Assembly (NCBI GenBank): GCA_025362575.1
Contig: JANYIQ010000248.1
Coordinates: 1-46,744, forward strand
Direction of reading: 5' to 3'
From: Bacteroidia bacterium
GTDB taxonomy: Bacteria > Bacteroidota > Bacteroidia > B-17B0 > Aurantibacillaceae
Length of the DNA: 46,744 nt
Shown here: positions 15,147 through 23,560 of the stretch, in pieces
Layout of the letters: every line of letters begins with the position of its first letter
Position numbering within the stretch: position 1 is the stretch's first letter
Made by a program: the position numbers and the translations under genes
The notes under the pieces: generated by a model
What the model saw: only the letters and a program-made list of their open reading frames with translations
Databases searched by the model: none
What the model was told of the DNA's origin: nothing

Positions 15147-15164
15147 TCCCGATAGCTATCGGGA
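15147..15164. repeat. 18-bp perfect palindrome, copy 1
   Basis: TCCCGATAGCTATCGGGA is its own reverse complement and recurs identically at 23543-23560. The spacer 15123-15445 holds this, the palindrome at 15191-15210, and otherwise plain A+T-rich DNA with no gene. Confidence 0.85.
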
Positions 15165-15190: not shown

Positions 15191-15210
15191 CCTGCCTGCC
15201 GGTAGGCAGG
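15191..15210. repeat. CCTGCC...GGCAGG palindrome, copy 2
   Basis: CCTGCCTGCCGGTAGGCAGG has a 7-bp stem and a GCCGGT centre. One base separates it from the element at 29767-29786. It lies 27 bases after the 18-bp palindrome. Confidence 0.75.
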
Positions 15211-15445: not shown

Positions 15446-16975
15446 ATGCTTCACACGCCAAGGCATACACTTGTTTTTTTGACCATAGTGTTCTCATTCA
15501 TGGGGCTGATCGCCTATGTTTTTCCGGTAGGTGGAATAAAGCTGGCCGAAAAGTTTGCTATCGAGTTCCCAACGCTTAGCAGCATTTTTAAAACCGAACA
15601 AAAAGAAAAGAAAGTTGACATTTCAAAAATTCTTGCTTTAGCCAATGCCGAAGAAAAAATTCTGGATGTAGAAGAAAAAGCAGAAACAGATACAGCTTCA
15701 CAAACCGCTGAGGTAAAAGCTGAGGTGAAGGCCGAGATCAAAAAAGCTTCAACTGAAATAGAAAGTCTTGAGAGCATTGATACAAATTTAAGATTGGTCA
15801 CCACCATTCAATACAAAAATGGTTCAAGGCAATCGCTTAACGGTTTTTTCTCCTCACTTAAAAATATTGGTGCTGAACCAAAAAGCATTCGTGTTTTACA
15901 TTATGGCGATTCACAGATCGAAGGCGATCGCATCAGTGATTACCTCCGTTTAAAATTGCAGAATCAGTTTGGCGGCGAAGGTCCGGGTTTAATCTCCTTA
16001 ATGCCGGTAGCGCCAAGTGTCATCAATCGCATTAACTGGAGCGATGGCTGGGACCGTTACGGAATATTTGCTTTTAAAGATAAGCGTGTGCCACATAACA
16101 ATTATGGAGGTCTTGCACATTTCAGCAGATTCAATAAATACAAAACCATTAGCGATTCTTCTTCGAGTTTAAGTGCCTGGGTAAAAATTCAAACTACAAA
16201 AAGCGGCGGAGCAAAAGCAACCGCTTATTCTAAACTAAAATTATTTTATGGCGGATCAAAAGCTAAGTTGGCAATTGATTTTTATGATGGCGGTGTATTT
16301 AAAGAAAGCGATAGTTTGGTAAAAGGTGGAACCTTTAATATTAAAGAATATAATGTAACACCAAACTCTCTAAATCACGAATTCAAATTTAAAGGAAAAG
16401 ATAGTCCGGATTTTTACGGGGCATCGCTTGAAGGAAACCGCGGCGTAATGGTGGATAACATTGGCTTACGCGGAAGCTCAGGAACTTTCTTCAATCAGTC
16501 TAACTATGCTCAGCTAAAACAATTTTATGATTATTTGAATGTGAAACTTATCATTCTTCAATTCGGAGGAAATACTTTACCGTACATAAAAGATAAATCA
16601 CAAGCCATTCAGTATGCCGGCTATTTAAAGTCGCAGATCTACACCATTAAAAAATTAGCACCTAATGCTTCAATTCTGGTAATTGGTCCGGCCGACATGA
16701 GTGTGAAAAAAGGAACAGAGTATGTAACGCATCCTATATTGGAAGACCTAAGAAACGCGATCCGACAAATTGCTTTTGATACAGACTGTGCATTTTTTGA
16801 CATGTACGATTGCATGGGTGGCCGTAACAGCATGGTAGCATGGGTTGATCAGGGCATTGCCGCAAAAGATTATGTGCATTTTAGTCCACAAGGGGCTCGT
16901 AAAATTGCAACACTTTTATATTCATCATTAATTAACGATTATAATGCTTTTCTTAAAACGCAAAGTTCAAAGTAA
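15446..16975 (+). CDS. Membrane-anchored SGNH-type hydrolase/acyltransferase, first paralogue
   Basis: This 509-residue protein has an N-terminal membrane anchor (about 8-28), a charged, probably coiled linker rich in Glu/Lys/Ala (about 48-108), and then an SGNH domain. Block I is HYGDSQIEGDRIS with S156, block III is QFGGNTLPY, and block V is AKDYVHFSPQG with D475 and H478. The domain should lie in the periplasm. Clustered with an MBOAT gene, it fits the pattern of AlgJ/AlgX or PatB-like proteins that pass acyl groups from the MBOAT to a glycan. The next gene, a paralogue, overlaps its end by 32 bases. The glycan acceptor is unknown. Confidence 0.82.
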   Translation: MLHTPRHTLVFLTIVFSFMGLIAYVFPVGGIKLAEKFAIEFPTLSSIFKTEQKEKKVDISKILALANAEEKILDVEEKAETDTASQTAEVKAEVKAEIKKASTEIESLESIDTNLRLVTTIQYKNGSRQSLNGFFSSLKNIGAEPKSIRVLHYGDSQIEGDRISDYLRLKLQNQFGGEGPGLISLMPVAPSVINRINWSDGWDRYGIFAFKDKRVPHNNYGGLAHFSRFNKYKTISDSSSSLSAWVKIQTTKSGGAKATAYSKLKLFYGGSKAKLAIDFYDGGVFKESDSLVKGGTFNIKEYNVTPNSLNHEFKFKGKDSPDFYGASLEGNRGVMVDNIGLRGSSGTFFNQSNYAQLKQFYDYLNVKLIILQFGGNTLPYIKDKSQAIQYAGYLKSQIYTIKKLAPNASILVIGPADMSVKKGTEYVTHPILEDLRNAIRQIAFDTDCAFFDMYDCMGGRNSMVAWVDQGIAAKDYVHFSPQGARKIATLLYSSLINDYNAFLKTQSSK

Positions 16976-18203
16976 CATACAAAGATTAGCATTGTGTCTA
17001 ATGCTTACCGTTTCTTTAAATGGAGGAGCTCAAACCAGTCCTTATGGTTTGCCTTTTGTTGATTACACTAAAAATAAAATTTCATATTCGAAAGACAGTT
17101 CTGAGATGATGGACTTTTTTAGAAAGGTAGATGAATTGAAACAAGGCAAACGCGCAAAAGTTACCATTGTGCATTATGGCGGTTCGCATATTCAGGCTGG
17201 TTTTTGGGGCGATAAGCTTATTTCGAATTTTCAGGCCATCAATAATTTTGAGGGAGGTGGATTGTTTATATTCCCATTTAAATTGGCTAGTACTAATAGT
17301 CCCGGATATTATAAATCCTTTAGTAGTGGTAAATGGAAGCGTTTTCGTTGCGCCACGGTAAAAGAAATGTGTGAAAATTTAGGTATGGCCGGAATTGCGG
17401 TGGTGAACAATGATAGTTCAACCAACTTCGGAATAAAATTAACCAACGTTCATCACAAAAAATTCAACATCATAAAAGTATATCACAATTTTAATGCAAG
17501 TTTCGAGATCAGTATTCCTGAAAGTATTGGCATGCAAGTGGCAAGAAAAGATGTGAAAGAAAAAGGCTTTACCGCTTTTGCATTTGAGACCTATATAGAT
17601 TCGGTGAATTTTAAATTAGTAAAATTGGATACCAACCGCAAAGATTTTATGTTGTATGGCTTTAGTGTTGAGAATACCAATCCCGGATTTTATTATGCAG
17701 GCTTTGGTGTGAATGGCGCTTCCAGTAATTCGTATTTAAAATGTAATTTATTCAAAGAACAATTAGAAACCTTACAACCCGACCTTGTTGTTTTTTCTTT
17801 AGGTGTGAATGATACTCAGGGAAAAGATTTTAATAAAGAAGATTATATCAATCATTACGACAGCATGATTGCTGAGGTAAGAAAAGCTTCACCAAGTTGC
17901 GCAATACTTTTAACAACAACTACAGATAATTATATTAAATTGAAAGGTAAAAAAAGAAGAGTTTCAAATAGTCGTACCGCAACCGCGGGTGAAGCCATGT
18001 TCGAAATGATGGAAACGCATAAAGCTGCGGTTTGGGACTTGTATGGCATAATGGGCGGTTACAAATCTATGGCGAATTGGCTCAAAGCAGGTTTAGCGGC
18101 AAAAGATAAAGTACATTTTAATGCTAGAGGCTACGGCATAGTAGGACAACTGATGTTTGATGCTATTGATAAAAGTTATAAATATAATAGTAAGGTTAAG
18201 TAG
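16944..18203 (+). CDS. SGNH-type protein, second paralogue with altered block I
   Basis: This 419-residue protein has a signal-peptide-like N-terminus (MLFLKRKVQSN, then a hydrophobic stretch ending near GGAQT). It is paralogous to the preceding gene across the SGNH domain: block I reads HYGGSHIQAGFWGD with S81 but Gly in place of the usual Asp of GDS, block III is FSLGVNDTQG, and block V is AKDKVHFNARG with D388 and H391. The catalytic Ser-Asp-His set is therefore present despite the GDS change. It overlaps the first paralogue by 32 bases and precedes the MBOAT gene by 46 bases. It probably acts in the same periplasmic acylation step or on a different acceptor. An alternative ATG at 16998 would shorten the signal sequence. 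Confidence 0.8.
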   Translation: MLFLKRKVQSNIQRLALCLMLTVSLNGGAQTSPYGLPFVDYTKNKISYSKDSSEMMDFFRKVDELKQGKRAKVTIVHYGGSHIQAGFWGDKLISNFQAINNFEGGGLFIFPFKLASTNSPGYYKSFSSGKWKRFRCATVKEMCENLGMAGIAVVNNDSSTNFGIKLTNVHHKKFNIIKVYHNFNASFEISIPESIGMQVARKDVKEKGFTAFAFETYIDSVNFKLVKLDTNRKDFMLYGFSVENTNPGFYYAGFGVNGASSNSYLKCNLFKEQLETLQPDLVVFSLGVNDTQGKDFNKEDYINHYDSMIAEVRKASPSCAILLTTTTDNYIKLKGKKRRVSNSRTATAGEAMFEMMETHKAAVWDLYGIMGGYKSMANWLKAGLAAKDKVHFNARGYGIVGQLMFDAIDKSYKYNSKVK

Positions 18204-18249
18204 CGACTAAAGAGATAAAAGGGATGGAAGGGACGGTTGATCCTAAAAA

Positions 18250-19914
18250 ATGGAAGAAGTATTAAACTACATAAAAGAAGTATTTAATTTTACCGAAGGT
18301 AAACCCATTATATTTACCCAACTTTTCTTTTGGGGATTTTTTGCGGTTGTACTCTTCTTTTATTCTTTTGTTTACAAGAAAATAGCCCTTCGGAATATTT
18401 ATCTTTTGCTGGTTAGTTTTTTCTTTTATTACAAAACAAGTGGCGTATTTTTAATTTTGTTGCTTTTTACCATTTGCAGTGACTACAATTGGGGACGACT
18501 TATACACAATGCCAGCGATCCGAGAAAAAAGAAGCTTTATGTAACGATAAGTGTTACCTTGAACGTTTTGCTCTTAAGCTATTTTAAGTACGCTTATTTT
18601 TTTACGGATAGTTTTAATCAGTTGTTTCATACTGATGTTGCTTTTTTTAATCATTTCTCTCAATTCACAAATACGTTTTTAGGAACGCATTTCAGTATAG
18701 ATAAACTGATCTTGCCGGTTGGGGTTTCGTTTTTTACGTTTCAATCTATTTCGTACACGGTGGATATGTATCGCGGAAAAGTAACGCCTGTTAAAAACAT
18801 TTTTGATTACGGATTTTTTGTGTGTTTCTTCCCGCATTTAGTAGCAGGACCAATTGTAAAGGCTCACGATTTTTTATATCAAATCTATCAGCCTTATACA
18901 TTAACGCGAAAGGAATTTGGTTTTTCTTTATTCTGGATAATGAACGGATTGATGAAAAAGATCTTTGCCGATTACATTGCCGTAAATTTTATTGACCGCA
19001 TTTTTGATAATCCCAATTATTATTCGGGAGTAGAAACTGTTTTTGGGATCTTTGGTTACTCTATTCAGATATATGCTGATTTTTCAGGTTATACAGATAT
19101 TGCCATTGGTATAGCATTGCTACTTGGCTTTAGATTAAAAACCAATTTCAATTCGCCTTACAAAGCACAGAACGTAAGTGAATTCTGGCAGCGCTGGCAT
19201 ATTTCGCTTTCCACCTGGTTAAAAGAATATCTGTACATTCCTCTAGGTGGTAACAAAACCGGAACCGTTGGTTCTTATATAGCTATTACTTTTATATCTG
19301 TTATCATGGTAATGCTTACCGGAAAACTGTGGCTGCTTCTCATATTATTCGGCATTGCAATACCATTTACTTTATTGGCCTATTTCAGTAAAGCAGTTCG
19401 TCAAACTATTAATACCAATATCAATTTAATGGTTACCATGTTGCTCGGAGGCCTTTGGCATGGCAGCAGCTGGCTGTTCATTATCTGGGGTGGATTAAAC
19501 GGATTGGGATTGGTATTTCATAAATTCTGGCTTAAAATTTCTCCGATAAAAAATTCGAACTCGTTTTTAACTAAGGCAATTTCGGTTTTGGTAACACTCA
19601 CGTTTATCAGTTTCACTCGAATATTTTTCAGAAGCAGTAGTCTGGATACTGTGAATTTGATTTTTGACCGCATAACGAATCATTTTGGTTTGAATTTATT
19701 TTTCGATATCATAAAAGGATATTCAGGAGTACTCGGGTTAATTCTATTAGGTTATCTTATACACTGGATCCCTCTTAACATTAAAGAAAAGTACAGAACT
19801 TATTTTGCCGAATTGCCTTTGTATGCAATGGCCATAGTAACAGTTGTGATCGTTTTCGCAATGTATCAGTTAATGAGTGATGAAATGCAGCCATTTATTT
19901 ACTTTCAATTTTAA
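18250..19914 (+). CDS. MBOAT-family O-acyltransferase (AlgI/DltB-like)
   Basis: This 554-residue polytopic protein has the MBOAT core: VGVSFFTFQSISYTVDMYRG, FFPHLVAGPIVKAHDFL, the re-entrant block FWQRWHISLSTWLKEYLYIP with H317, and GGLWHGSSWLFIIWGGLNG with the catalytic-type H404. Such proteins move acyl groups from a cytoplasmic thioester donor across the membrane for transfer to glycans or teichoic acids. The two SGNH genes upstream are the likely periplasmic transferases, as in alginate acetylation. It is intact and somewhat longer than AlgI (about 500). Donor and acceptor are not readable. Confidence 0.93.
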   Translation: MEEVLNYIKEVFNFTEGKPIIFTQLFFWGFFAVVLFFYSFVYKKIALRNIYLLLVSFFFYYKTSGVFLILLLFTICSDYNWGRLIHNASDPRKKKLYVTISVTLNVLLLSYFKYAYFFTDSFNQLFHTDVAFFNHFSQFTNTFLGTHFSIDKLILPVGVSFFTFQSISYTVDMYRGKVTPVKNIFDYGFFVCFFPHLVAGPIVKAHDFLYQIYQPYTLTRKEFGFSLFWIMNGLMKKIFADYIAVNFIDRIFDNPNYYSGVETVFGIFGYSIQIYADFSGYTDIAIGIALLLGFRLKTNFNSPYKAQNVSEFWQRWHISLSTWLKEYLYIPLGGNKTGTVGSYIAITFISVIMVMLTGKLWLLLILFGIAIPFTLLAYFSKAVRQTINTNINLMVTMLLGGLWHGSSWLFIIWGGLNGLGLVFHKFWLKISPIKNSNSFLTKAISVLVTLTFISFTRIFFRSSSLDTVNLIFDRITNHFGLNLFFDIIKGYSGVLGLILLGYLIHWIPLNIKEKYRTYFAELPLYAMAIVTVVIVFAMYQLMSDEMQPFIYFQF

Positions 19915-19923
19915 TACCTTTGA

Positions 19924-21072
19924 ATGCTGAAAGCAAGTGATCATATTTATTTCAAAGGATTGAACGGTTTGCGGTTCTTTGCGGCATTAGCGGTTATTAT
20001 AACACACATAGAGCTGATCAAAGAACAAATGGGTTGTCCCGACCTTTGGGAAACCGGCCCAATGATAAAAGAGCTGGGAAGTTTAGGAGTAATTTTCTTT
20101 TTTGTATTAAGCGGTTTTTTGATCACCTATTTATTGCTGCAGGAAAAATCCGTTACGGGTACCATTGTAGTGAAAAAGTTTTACATCCGTCGTTTATTGC
20201 GCATCTGGCCTTTGTATTTTTTAATTGTGTTCTTGGGCTTTCTGGTGCTCACACATTTTGAATTCATGGATATTCCTTATTTAAAGAATAAACTTTCTCA
20301 TAATTTCGGGACCAATTTCTTATTGTATGTGGTAATGCTTCCAAACTTAGCCTTCGCCATGTTTGCAGCGGTTCCGCACATTGGCCAAACCTGGTCGATC
20401 GGAGTAGAAGAACAGTTCTACATTATCTGGCCATTAATTGTGAAGCATTCTAAGAATATTTTAAAAGCACTGATCTTTATCATAATTTTTCTGGTGGGAT
20501 TAAAAGTATTAGTGCTATTCTCTTATAAAGCTGATCCTACAAATTCGTTTTTAAACGTTTTGAAGCCCTTTTTAGTGATGACTAAAATGGAATGTATGGC
20601 CATTGGAGGTTTGGGAGCCTATTTTTTATTTAGCGGAGAAAAGATCAAAGTACTGTTTAATAACGGACTTTTGGTTCTTTCATTTGCTCTTATTGTTATA
20701 TCGGTTTATTTCACTCCTGATGTTATTCAGGACGGAATTTATTTAATGAATTCGGTTTTATTTCTGATCATTATTCTCAATGTATCTTCTAATCCCAATT
20801 GCTTTTTAAAGCTCGAGAATAACGCTTTTAAAATGCTTGGTAATATTTCTTACGGCATTTACATGTATCACATGATAGTGATAGCAATGGTTGTAGGCTT
20901 TCTTAAAAAAATGGATTTTACAGTGGATAATGGAGTTCTGTCACAATCAATTGTATATTCGCTAACTATTTTGATCAGCATTTTTGTTTCATGGTTATCG
21001 TACACTTATTTCGAAAAATGGTTCCTGAAGCTCAAAAGTAAATTTACTATTATCAAAAGCGGGATCTCTTAG
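19924..21072 (+). CDS. Acyltransferase family 3 (OafA/YrhL-type) membrane protein
   Basis: This 382-residue protein starts MLKASDHIYFKGLNGLRFFA and shows the family's R-x10-H motif in the first membrane segment (R17, H28). It also has VLSGFLITYLL, RRLLRIWPLYFL, QTWSIGVEEQFYIIWP and about ten membrane segments, ending in a basic tail. It has no fused SGNH domain, unlike long OafA proteins, though separate SGNH genes lie upstream. Members acetylate O-antigen, exopolysaccharide or peptidoglycan. It begins 9 bases after the MBOAT stop and is likely the last gene of the cluster. Confidence 0.93.
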   Translation: MLKASDHIYFKGLNGLRFFAALAVIITHIELIKEQMGCPDLWETGPMIKELGSLGVIFFFVLSGFLITYLLLQEKSVTGTIVVKKFYIRRLLRIWPLYFLIVFLGFLVLTHFEFMDIPYLKNKLSHNFGTNFLLYVVMLPNLAFAMFAAVPHIGQTWSIGVEEQFYIIWPLIVKHSKNILKALIFIIIFLVGLKVLVLFSYKADPTNSFLNVLKPFLVMTKMECMAIGGLGAYFLFSGEKIKVLFNNGLLVLSFALIVISVYFTPDVIQDGIYLMNSVLFLIIILNVSSNPNCFLKLENNAFKMLGNISYGIYMYHMIVIAMVVGFLKKMDFTVDNGVLSQSIVYSLTILISIFVSWLSYTYFEKWFLKLKSKFTIIKSGIS

Positions 21073-23542: not shown

Positions 23543-23560
23543 TCCCGATAGCTATCGGGA
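23543..23560. repeat. 18-bp perfect palindrome, copy 2
   Basis: TCCCGATAGCTATCGGGA is identical to 15147-15164. Here it interrupts a CGCCACTAA...AAATCCC repeat of the kind seen at 8862-8935 (GCCACCAAATCCC...TTTTTGTGGC). Confidence 0.85.

Follow-up and report, generated by a model that had tools for sequence, protein, structure and literature searches.

The window analysed here, the full 46,744 nucleotides of contig JANYIQ010000248.1 from a Bacteroidia bacterium (assembly GCA_025362575.1), carries two adjacent genes for SGNH-family proteins, SGNH1 and SGNH2, followed by genes for a membrane-bound O-acyltransferase (MBOAT) and an acyltransferase-3 protein (AT3). The first three are probably a Bacteroidota-type cluster for O-acetyl-peptidoglycan (OAP), with the composition ape1b-ape1c-pat, in which SGNH1 is proposed to transfer acetyl groups and SGNH2 to remove them. 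The genes, folds, motifs, conservation and context were established with computational tools, whereas the substrate, the assignment of transfer and hydrolysis and the role of AT3 are inferred. This type of cluster has been known since 2005 from Bacteroides and Porphyromonas. Weadge et al. (PMC1199599) report ape1b, ape1c and pat in that order in B. thetaiotaomicron, B. fragilis and P. gingivalis, and because the trio in the window repeats this arrangement in a member of the same phylum, with a pair of Ape1-family SGNH genes leading straight into an MBOAT gene in the same order and all on one strand, we count it as a cluster of the same kind, from which the window differs in its additional AT3 gene. 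The same authors measured a proportion of O-acetylated peptidoglycan of 69.4% in B. fragilis and 27.0% in B. thetaiotaomicron, and ape2 (patB) is not named for the Bacteroides and Porphyromonas species; a value of 56-66% O-acetylation in Bacteroides is cited in PMC11382707. The clusters given in the relevant extract of a 2018 review (PMC6174289) are all of the PatA/PatB plus Ape kind, and its table contains no member of the Bacteroidota. Thus the peptidoglycan of Bacteroides is strongly O-acetylated, whereas PatA/PatB/Ape is the machinery on record for Gram-negative bacteria; the trio is the obvious candidate for peptidoglycan O-acetylation in this phylum.

Gene order was read in 173 other loci. 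These comprise 33 loci (L038-L070) of relatives, from which the source genome's four additional MBOAT loci were dropped, 80 named loci, which are the best-scoring 80 of 578 and therefore a biased rather than a random set, and 60 loci chosen from a phylum sample, about 40 of them strong and 20 weaker matches. SGNH1 is immediately followed by SGNH2 in 25, 70 and 31 loci of the three sets, respectively, and SGNH2 by MBOAT in 25, 62 and 30; the absent pairs include cases cut by contig ends. Among the sampled loci the order SGNH1-SGNH2-MBOAT occurs in 29 and SGNH1-MBOAT followed by SGNH2 in 9, while SGNH1-MBOAT lacks SGNH2 in 11 and SGNH2-MBOAT lacks SGNH1 in 1; the remainder have SGNH1 alone (8) or SGNH1-SGNH2 alone (2). 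SGNH2-type matches were present in 31 of 41 genomes (the source genome and 40 relatives) and in 127 of the 392 genomes of the phylum sample. The 32-bp overlap of the two SGNH genes reported in the first-pass annotation holds if SGNH2 begins at its first ATG, a start that yields a plausible signal peptide. Among the adjacent pairs such an overlap is frequent (18/25, 55/70 and 28/31 for the relatives, named and sampled sets). In two loci (L169 and L171) the trio is immediately preceded by a gene, on the other strand, for an extra SGNH2-like protein of about 360 residues.

The first-pass annotation had taken all four genes as one unit, a view to be abandoned if AT3 usually lay apart from the other three. 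This is what we observed; gene order in the Bacteroidota is conserved for the trio and not for the four genes together. AT3 lies directly 3' of MBOAT in 6 of the 173 loci (3 relatives, 3 named, 0 sampled), all six from close relatives, as determined with a profile built from four sequences, which distant AT3 genes could escape. As a cross-check, 40 next-downstream genes from these loci (same strand, 250-600 amino acids, gap <500) were scanned with Pfam and 5 were AT3; the sixth (L084), cut by a contig end, was left out. Of the 7 genomes of the window's genus that could be assessed, 4 (G000, G001, G002 and G006) have AT3 next to MBOAT and 3 (G004, G005 and G007) do not; G003 was omitted because its trio lies at a contig end. 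The trio is intact in G005, G007 and G012, and the best AT3 homologue (54-56% identity) is located elsewhere. The four-gene unit as a general rule was therefore rejected on gene order. Since AT3 follows MBOAT in few loci and is adjacent in only part of the window's genus, the conserved core comprises the three genes SGNH1-SGNH2-MBOAT, which recur across the Bacteroidota, and the rarity of AT3 marks it as a local feature, which may be an optional extra loader in the window's lineage or an unrelated neighbor. A role for AT3 in also loading acetyl onto the SGNH transferase, redundantly with the MBOAT, is possible although doubtful. The gene lies on the same strand, 9 bp past MBOAT, and its product has R17-x10-H28 and R90xxR93, the R-x10-H and RxxR motifs set out in PMC9558356 and shared with OatA and the stand-alone AT3 proteins WecH and Oac. 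A loader role is conceivable because, according to that source, WecH could substitute for PatA together with PatB, and B. anthracis is described there as having an AT3 without SGNH beside a PatA-like MBOAT. Neither the paucity of AT3 genes behind MBOAT nor the displaced homologues in relatives that retain an intact trio would be expected of such a loader. The arrangement is also unlike the AT3-SGNH fusion of OatA, in that the AT3 reading frame carries PF01757 as its sole domain, with no SGNH domain, and its association with the trio is sporadic.

AlphaFold2 models of the two SGNH proteins were built from alignments of 58 (SGNH1) and 54 (SGNH2) sequences, with mean pLDDT values of 92.9 and 93.8, and were compared with known structures using Foldseek and VIA-align 2. 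The SGNH1 model aligned with Ape1 (4k3u) with Z 37.8 and rmsd 2.8 over 342 residues and with 8gkd with Z 33.6, the next other entry scoring 17.1; for SGNH2 the match to Ape1 had Z 38.4 and rmsd 2.7 over 345 residues, with 36.0 for 8gld and 19.6 for the next other entry. In both proteins the match to Ape1 of Neisseria and Campylobacter covers the inserted beta-sandwich, and in profile searches of PDB sequences Ape1 was the top match for SGNH1 (9e-33) and SGNH2 (3e-38). The models thus predict with high confidence that both proteins share the entire two-domain architecture of Ape1, a peptidoglycan O-acetylesterase, complete with the catalytic Ser-Asp-His and the oxyanion Gly and Asn. In relatives the catalytic residues vary little or not at all (Ser156, Asn376, Asp475 and His478 of SGNH1; Ser81, Asn289, Asp388 and His391 of SGNH2), and SGNH2 retains the Ape1 signature near blocks II, III and V (GVNGA, GVND and MGG..SM..W....AAKDxVHF). 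The resemblance to Ape1 (4k3u, 8gkd, 8gld) in overall fold and in the motifs of blocks II, III and V contrasts with identities of just 17 to 21% in the structural alignments, with a block I of GDSQ in SGNH1 or GGSH in SGNH2, and with the predicted membrane helix and helical N-terminal extension that SGNH1 adds. For SGNH1, PatB structures scored Z 14.4-14.6, at the level of generic SGNH entries; they were not among the matches listed for SGNH2, an absence that is itself no proof. The single SGNH domain of PatB is not what we find, as the inserted domain is present in both proteins. The first-pass proposal that SGNH1 and SGNH2 are paralogues was borne out by BLASTP (28% identity over 180 amino acids, E 2e-14). 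Apart from this pair the source genome has no protein of the Ape1 type, a third match (E 0.05) being too weak to count.

The MBOAT displays the features of PatA, namely a catalytic His404 and the C-terminal FIYFQF, an instance of FxYxxF. PMC12148441 describes acetylation of the PatA tail Tyr from acetyl-CoA and the ability of an acetylated tail peptide to feed PatB. The FxYxxF tail is kept in 25/27, 56/61 and 40/49 MBOATs of at least 400 amino acids from the relatives, named and sampled loci; the exceptions mostly keep the Tyr and mostly have PIYLQF or a comparable ending, and four have unrelated letters or a cut frame. Because the four other MBOATs of the source genome, which has five such genes in total, have similar C-terminal ends, the tail informs on mechanism and not on substrate. 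The basic claim of the first-pass annotation, that an MBOAT acylates the envelope together with SGNH proteins, is supported. The arrangement resembles patA-patB-ape1 of Neisseria and Campylobacter in combining an MBOAT that has an FxYxxF tail with an Ape1-fold esterase, and differs from it in that another Ape1-fold protein takes the place of the one-domain PatB and that the MBOAT gene is last rather than first. No PatB gene lies in the cluster; the rest of the genome was not searched for one.

In the mechanism that we propose, the MBOAT would move acetyl from acetyl-CoA, by means of His404, to Tyr551 of its tail, and the tail would pass it to Ser156 of a membrane-anchored SGNH1. SGNH1 would then place it on the C6 hydroxyl of MurNAc, where it would stop lytic transglycosylases and lysozyme, and periplasmic SGNH2 would take it off where the wall has to open. 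SGNH1 is favored as the transferase and SGNH2 as the esterase because the predicted N-terminal helix of SGNH1 may be an anchor like that of PatB and because, as noted above, the sampled loci with SGNH1 and MBOAT but no SGNH2 outnumber the reverse case by 11 to 1, some of the 11 being in the setting of another polymer. Conserved residues, including a nearly invariant Pro27, stand just behind the predicted helix, which suggests a retained membrane anchor, while the N-terminus of SGNH2 resembles a signal peptide that is cleaved off, without an anchor.

Peptidoglycan is the more likely substrate, rather than a surface glycan, in view of the Ape1 fold of both SGNH proteins, the LysM domains in SGNH2 relatives and the transglycosylase genes beside the trio. 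Pfam detects LysM in 15 of 44 SGNH2 sequences (43 sampled plus that of the window, which has none) versus 1 of 60 for SGNH1; the domain is either C-terminal or part of the beta insert. Genes for an SLT plus LysM transglycosylase (MltD) at the position just upstream (-1) were counted in the named set (80 loci) and the sampled set (60 loci), the 33 relatives being left out. In 36 of the 80 named loci such a gene precedes the trio on the same strand, overlapping or no more than 20 bp away in 29 of the 36, and these loci span the Flavobacteriales, Bacteroidales, Marinilabiliales and Cytophagales. ParA or ParB is encoded nearby in 9 of them. The SLT and LysM domains were confirmed in three examples from the named and sampled sets; one transglycosylase gene right upstream of a trio is at L113:4088-5743. 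This proximity suggests that wall cutting and wall acetylation are controlled jointly, as might be compared with Neisseria, where LtgA is reported to bind and stimulate Ape1 (PMC7083599). A search of open-access full text for a link between lytic transglycosylase, O-acetylesterase and LysM in Bacteroid- organisms found no paper.

A broader scenario, which we offer only tentatively, is that peptidoglycan acetylation in the Bacteroidota is PatB-free. An Ape1-type esterase would have been duplicated and the membrane-anchored copy, SGNH1, would have become a transferase that receives acetyl from the MBOAT tail. SGNH2, which in many cases has LysM or an Asp-to-Gly change fixed once, would tune removal together with a co-transcribed lytic transglycosylase, and AT3 would be a second loader of that transferase in the window's lineage. 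The two Ape1-fold proteins of the trio offer a clear test case for an esterase fold turning transferase.

Several observations weigh against the proposed assignment of roles and substrate. PMC12148441 describes Ser or Asn in PatB at the site of the block II Gly, a change that was seen in neither SGNH protein (Gly343 in 58/58 and 60/60 SGNH1 sequences of the named and sampled sets, Gly258 in 53/54 and 42/44 for SGNH2), so that transferase activity of the Ape1 fold is putative. By its published description in PMC1199599, Ape1c lacks a segment of about 100 residues past motif I, whereas the SGNH2 model keeps the beta domain, with strands between residues 105 and 255, that is, between blocks I and II. 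Pfam found no LysM in the 58 and 54 sequences of the named alignments or in the window. Just 2 of the 60 sampled loci have MltD at -1, the window has no adjacent transglycosylase gene, and the three SLT genes of its genome are on other contigs. Outside the window's class, SGNH1-type genes adjoin glycosyltransferase 2 (GT2) or AMP-binding genes. Finally, in one genome (L063:4654-7500, minus strand) a single 948-residue reading frame joins an SGNH2 domain to the MBOAT, which would favor SGNH2 as the direct partner. This frame, which may be a natural fusion or the product of a lost stop in a draft genome, is one among 173 loci and was set aside as proof of partnership.

The last point leads to an alternative that we consider unlikely, namely that the roles are swapped within the same peptidoglycan cluster, with SGNH2 (GGSH) as the transferase and SGNH1 as the esterase. 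In addition to the L063 fusion, this would fit the adjacency of SGNH2 to MBOAT in the commonest gene order and the loss from SGNH2 of the block I Asp that Ape1 keeps. It fits poorly with an apparently cleavable signal peptide and no anchor on SGNH2, with the solitary sampled locus in which SGNH2 and MBOAT occur without SGNH1, with the LysM domains on SGNH2, which suit action on the mature wall, and with the retention of GDS in 44 of 143 SGNH2 proteins.

Still less probable is a role of the trio in acylating a surface glycan, either lipid-linked or secreted, to which AT3 would add a second acyl group, a reading close to that of the first-pass annotation. The GT2 and AMP-binding neighbors outside the window's class indicate that the SGNH1 type can serve other polymers, and AT3 proteins often modify O-antigens and capsules, according to PMC9558356 and PMC9833829. 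Set against this are the Ape1 fold of both SGNH proteins, the LysM fusions and transglycosylase tandems in relatives, the absence of AT3 from most loci and the lack of glycan synthesis genes directly beside the trio. As the first-pass annotation had stated, polysaccharide synthesis genes are not among the immediate neighbors, which encode GlmM, a cysteine desulfurase and a DUF349 protein; among the reading frames scanned, which do not include every more distant one of the window, the setting is not the polysaccharide synthesis locus of the AlgI/AlgJ-AlgX or WssH type. As a separate observation, an SGNH1-type protein is encoded with an AMP-binding enzyme and an MBOAT in L195, L206 and L208, and beside a GT2 gene in L196 and L201; these are possibly further acylation systems with other substrates.

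The first-pass annotation had correctly pointed out that block I of SGNH2 reads GGSH instead of GDSH while its Ser, Asn, Asp and His are retained. At the site of this Asp, 143 SGNH2 sequences have Gly (94), Asp (44) or Ala (4), with one unread. On a FastTree tree only 3 label changes are needed, compared with about 42 when the labels are shuffled, and the replacement of Asp by Gly is therefore best read as one old event, with Ala arising later. The change is clade-wide and not peculiar to the source genome, and since the other catalytic residues are kept, decay to a pseudo-enzyme was rejected. The review PMC6174289 presents a proposal that Asp79 of Ape1 positions catalytic residues or binds substrate, and the activity of SGNH2 is thus likely to be altered rather than lost. 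The motif I given in PMC1199599, GDS(H/F), is matched literally by neither GDSQ nor GGSH, a mismatch that we regard as variation inside the family because many SGNH2 relatives have the Asp; motif VII of the same source, Dx(V/T)H, is present as DYVH and DKVH.

Table 1. Positions in the window of the four genes and of the sequence features discussed in the text.
Feature	Coordinates	Strand	Description
SGNH1	15446..16975	+	509 aa; Ape1-fold with predicted, probably retained N-terminal membrane helix; proposed transferase; ape1b position
SGNH2	16944..18203	+	419 aa; periplasmic Ape1-fold with signal peptide; proposed O-acetylesterase; ape1c position
MBOAT	18250..19914	+	554 aa; PatA-like acyl exporter; catalytic His404
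AT3	19924..21072	+	382 aa; stand-alone acyltransferase-3; accessory, outside conserved unit
SGNH1 predicted N-terminal transmembrane helix	15458..15520	+	residues 5-25
SGNH1 block I GDSQ	15905..15916	+	nucleophile Ser156
SGNH2 block I GGSH	17178..17189	+	Gly80 instead of Asp; nucleophile Ser81
SGNH2 block V D388-K-V-H391	18105..18116	+	corresponds to DxVH of Ape1
MBOAT C-terminal FIYFQF	19894..19911	+	FxYxxF acyl-shuttle motif, Tyr551

The four open reading frames were found where the first-pass annotation had placed them (Table 1). Pfam assigns SGNH/GDSL (PF13472) to SGNH1 (E 6.3e-11) and SGNH2 (E 9.5e-17), MBOAT (PF03062) to the third product (E 7.5e-22) and Acyl_transf_3 (PF01757) to AT3 (E 1.3e-26). 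All four genes share one strand, with 46 bp between SGNH2 and MBOAT, and the run is flanked by gene-free stretches of 323 and 161 bp at its two ends. A scan for promoters and terminators gave counts at the level of shuffled sequence (20 versus 22.3 and 5 versus 4.4), from which operon limits cannot be inferred. The gap before SGNH1 contains two GC-rich palindromes, at 15148-15163 and 15191-15210. The draft genome contains 16 copies of CCCGATAGCTATCGGG, another of which lies in the window at 23544-23559, and 9 copies of CCTGCCGGTAGGCAGG, while reversed control patterns gave zero matches; they look like dispersed palindromic repeats.

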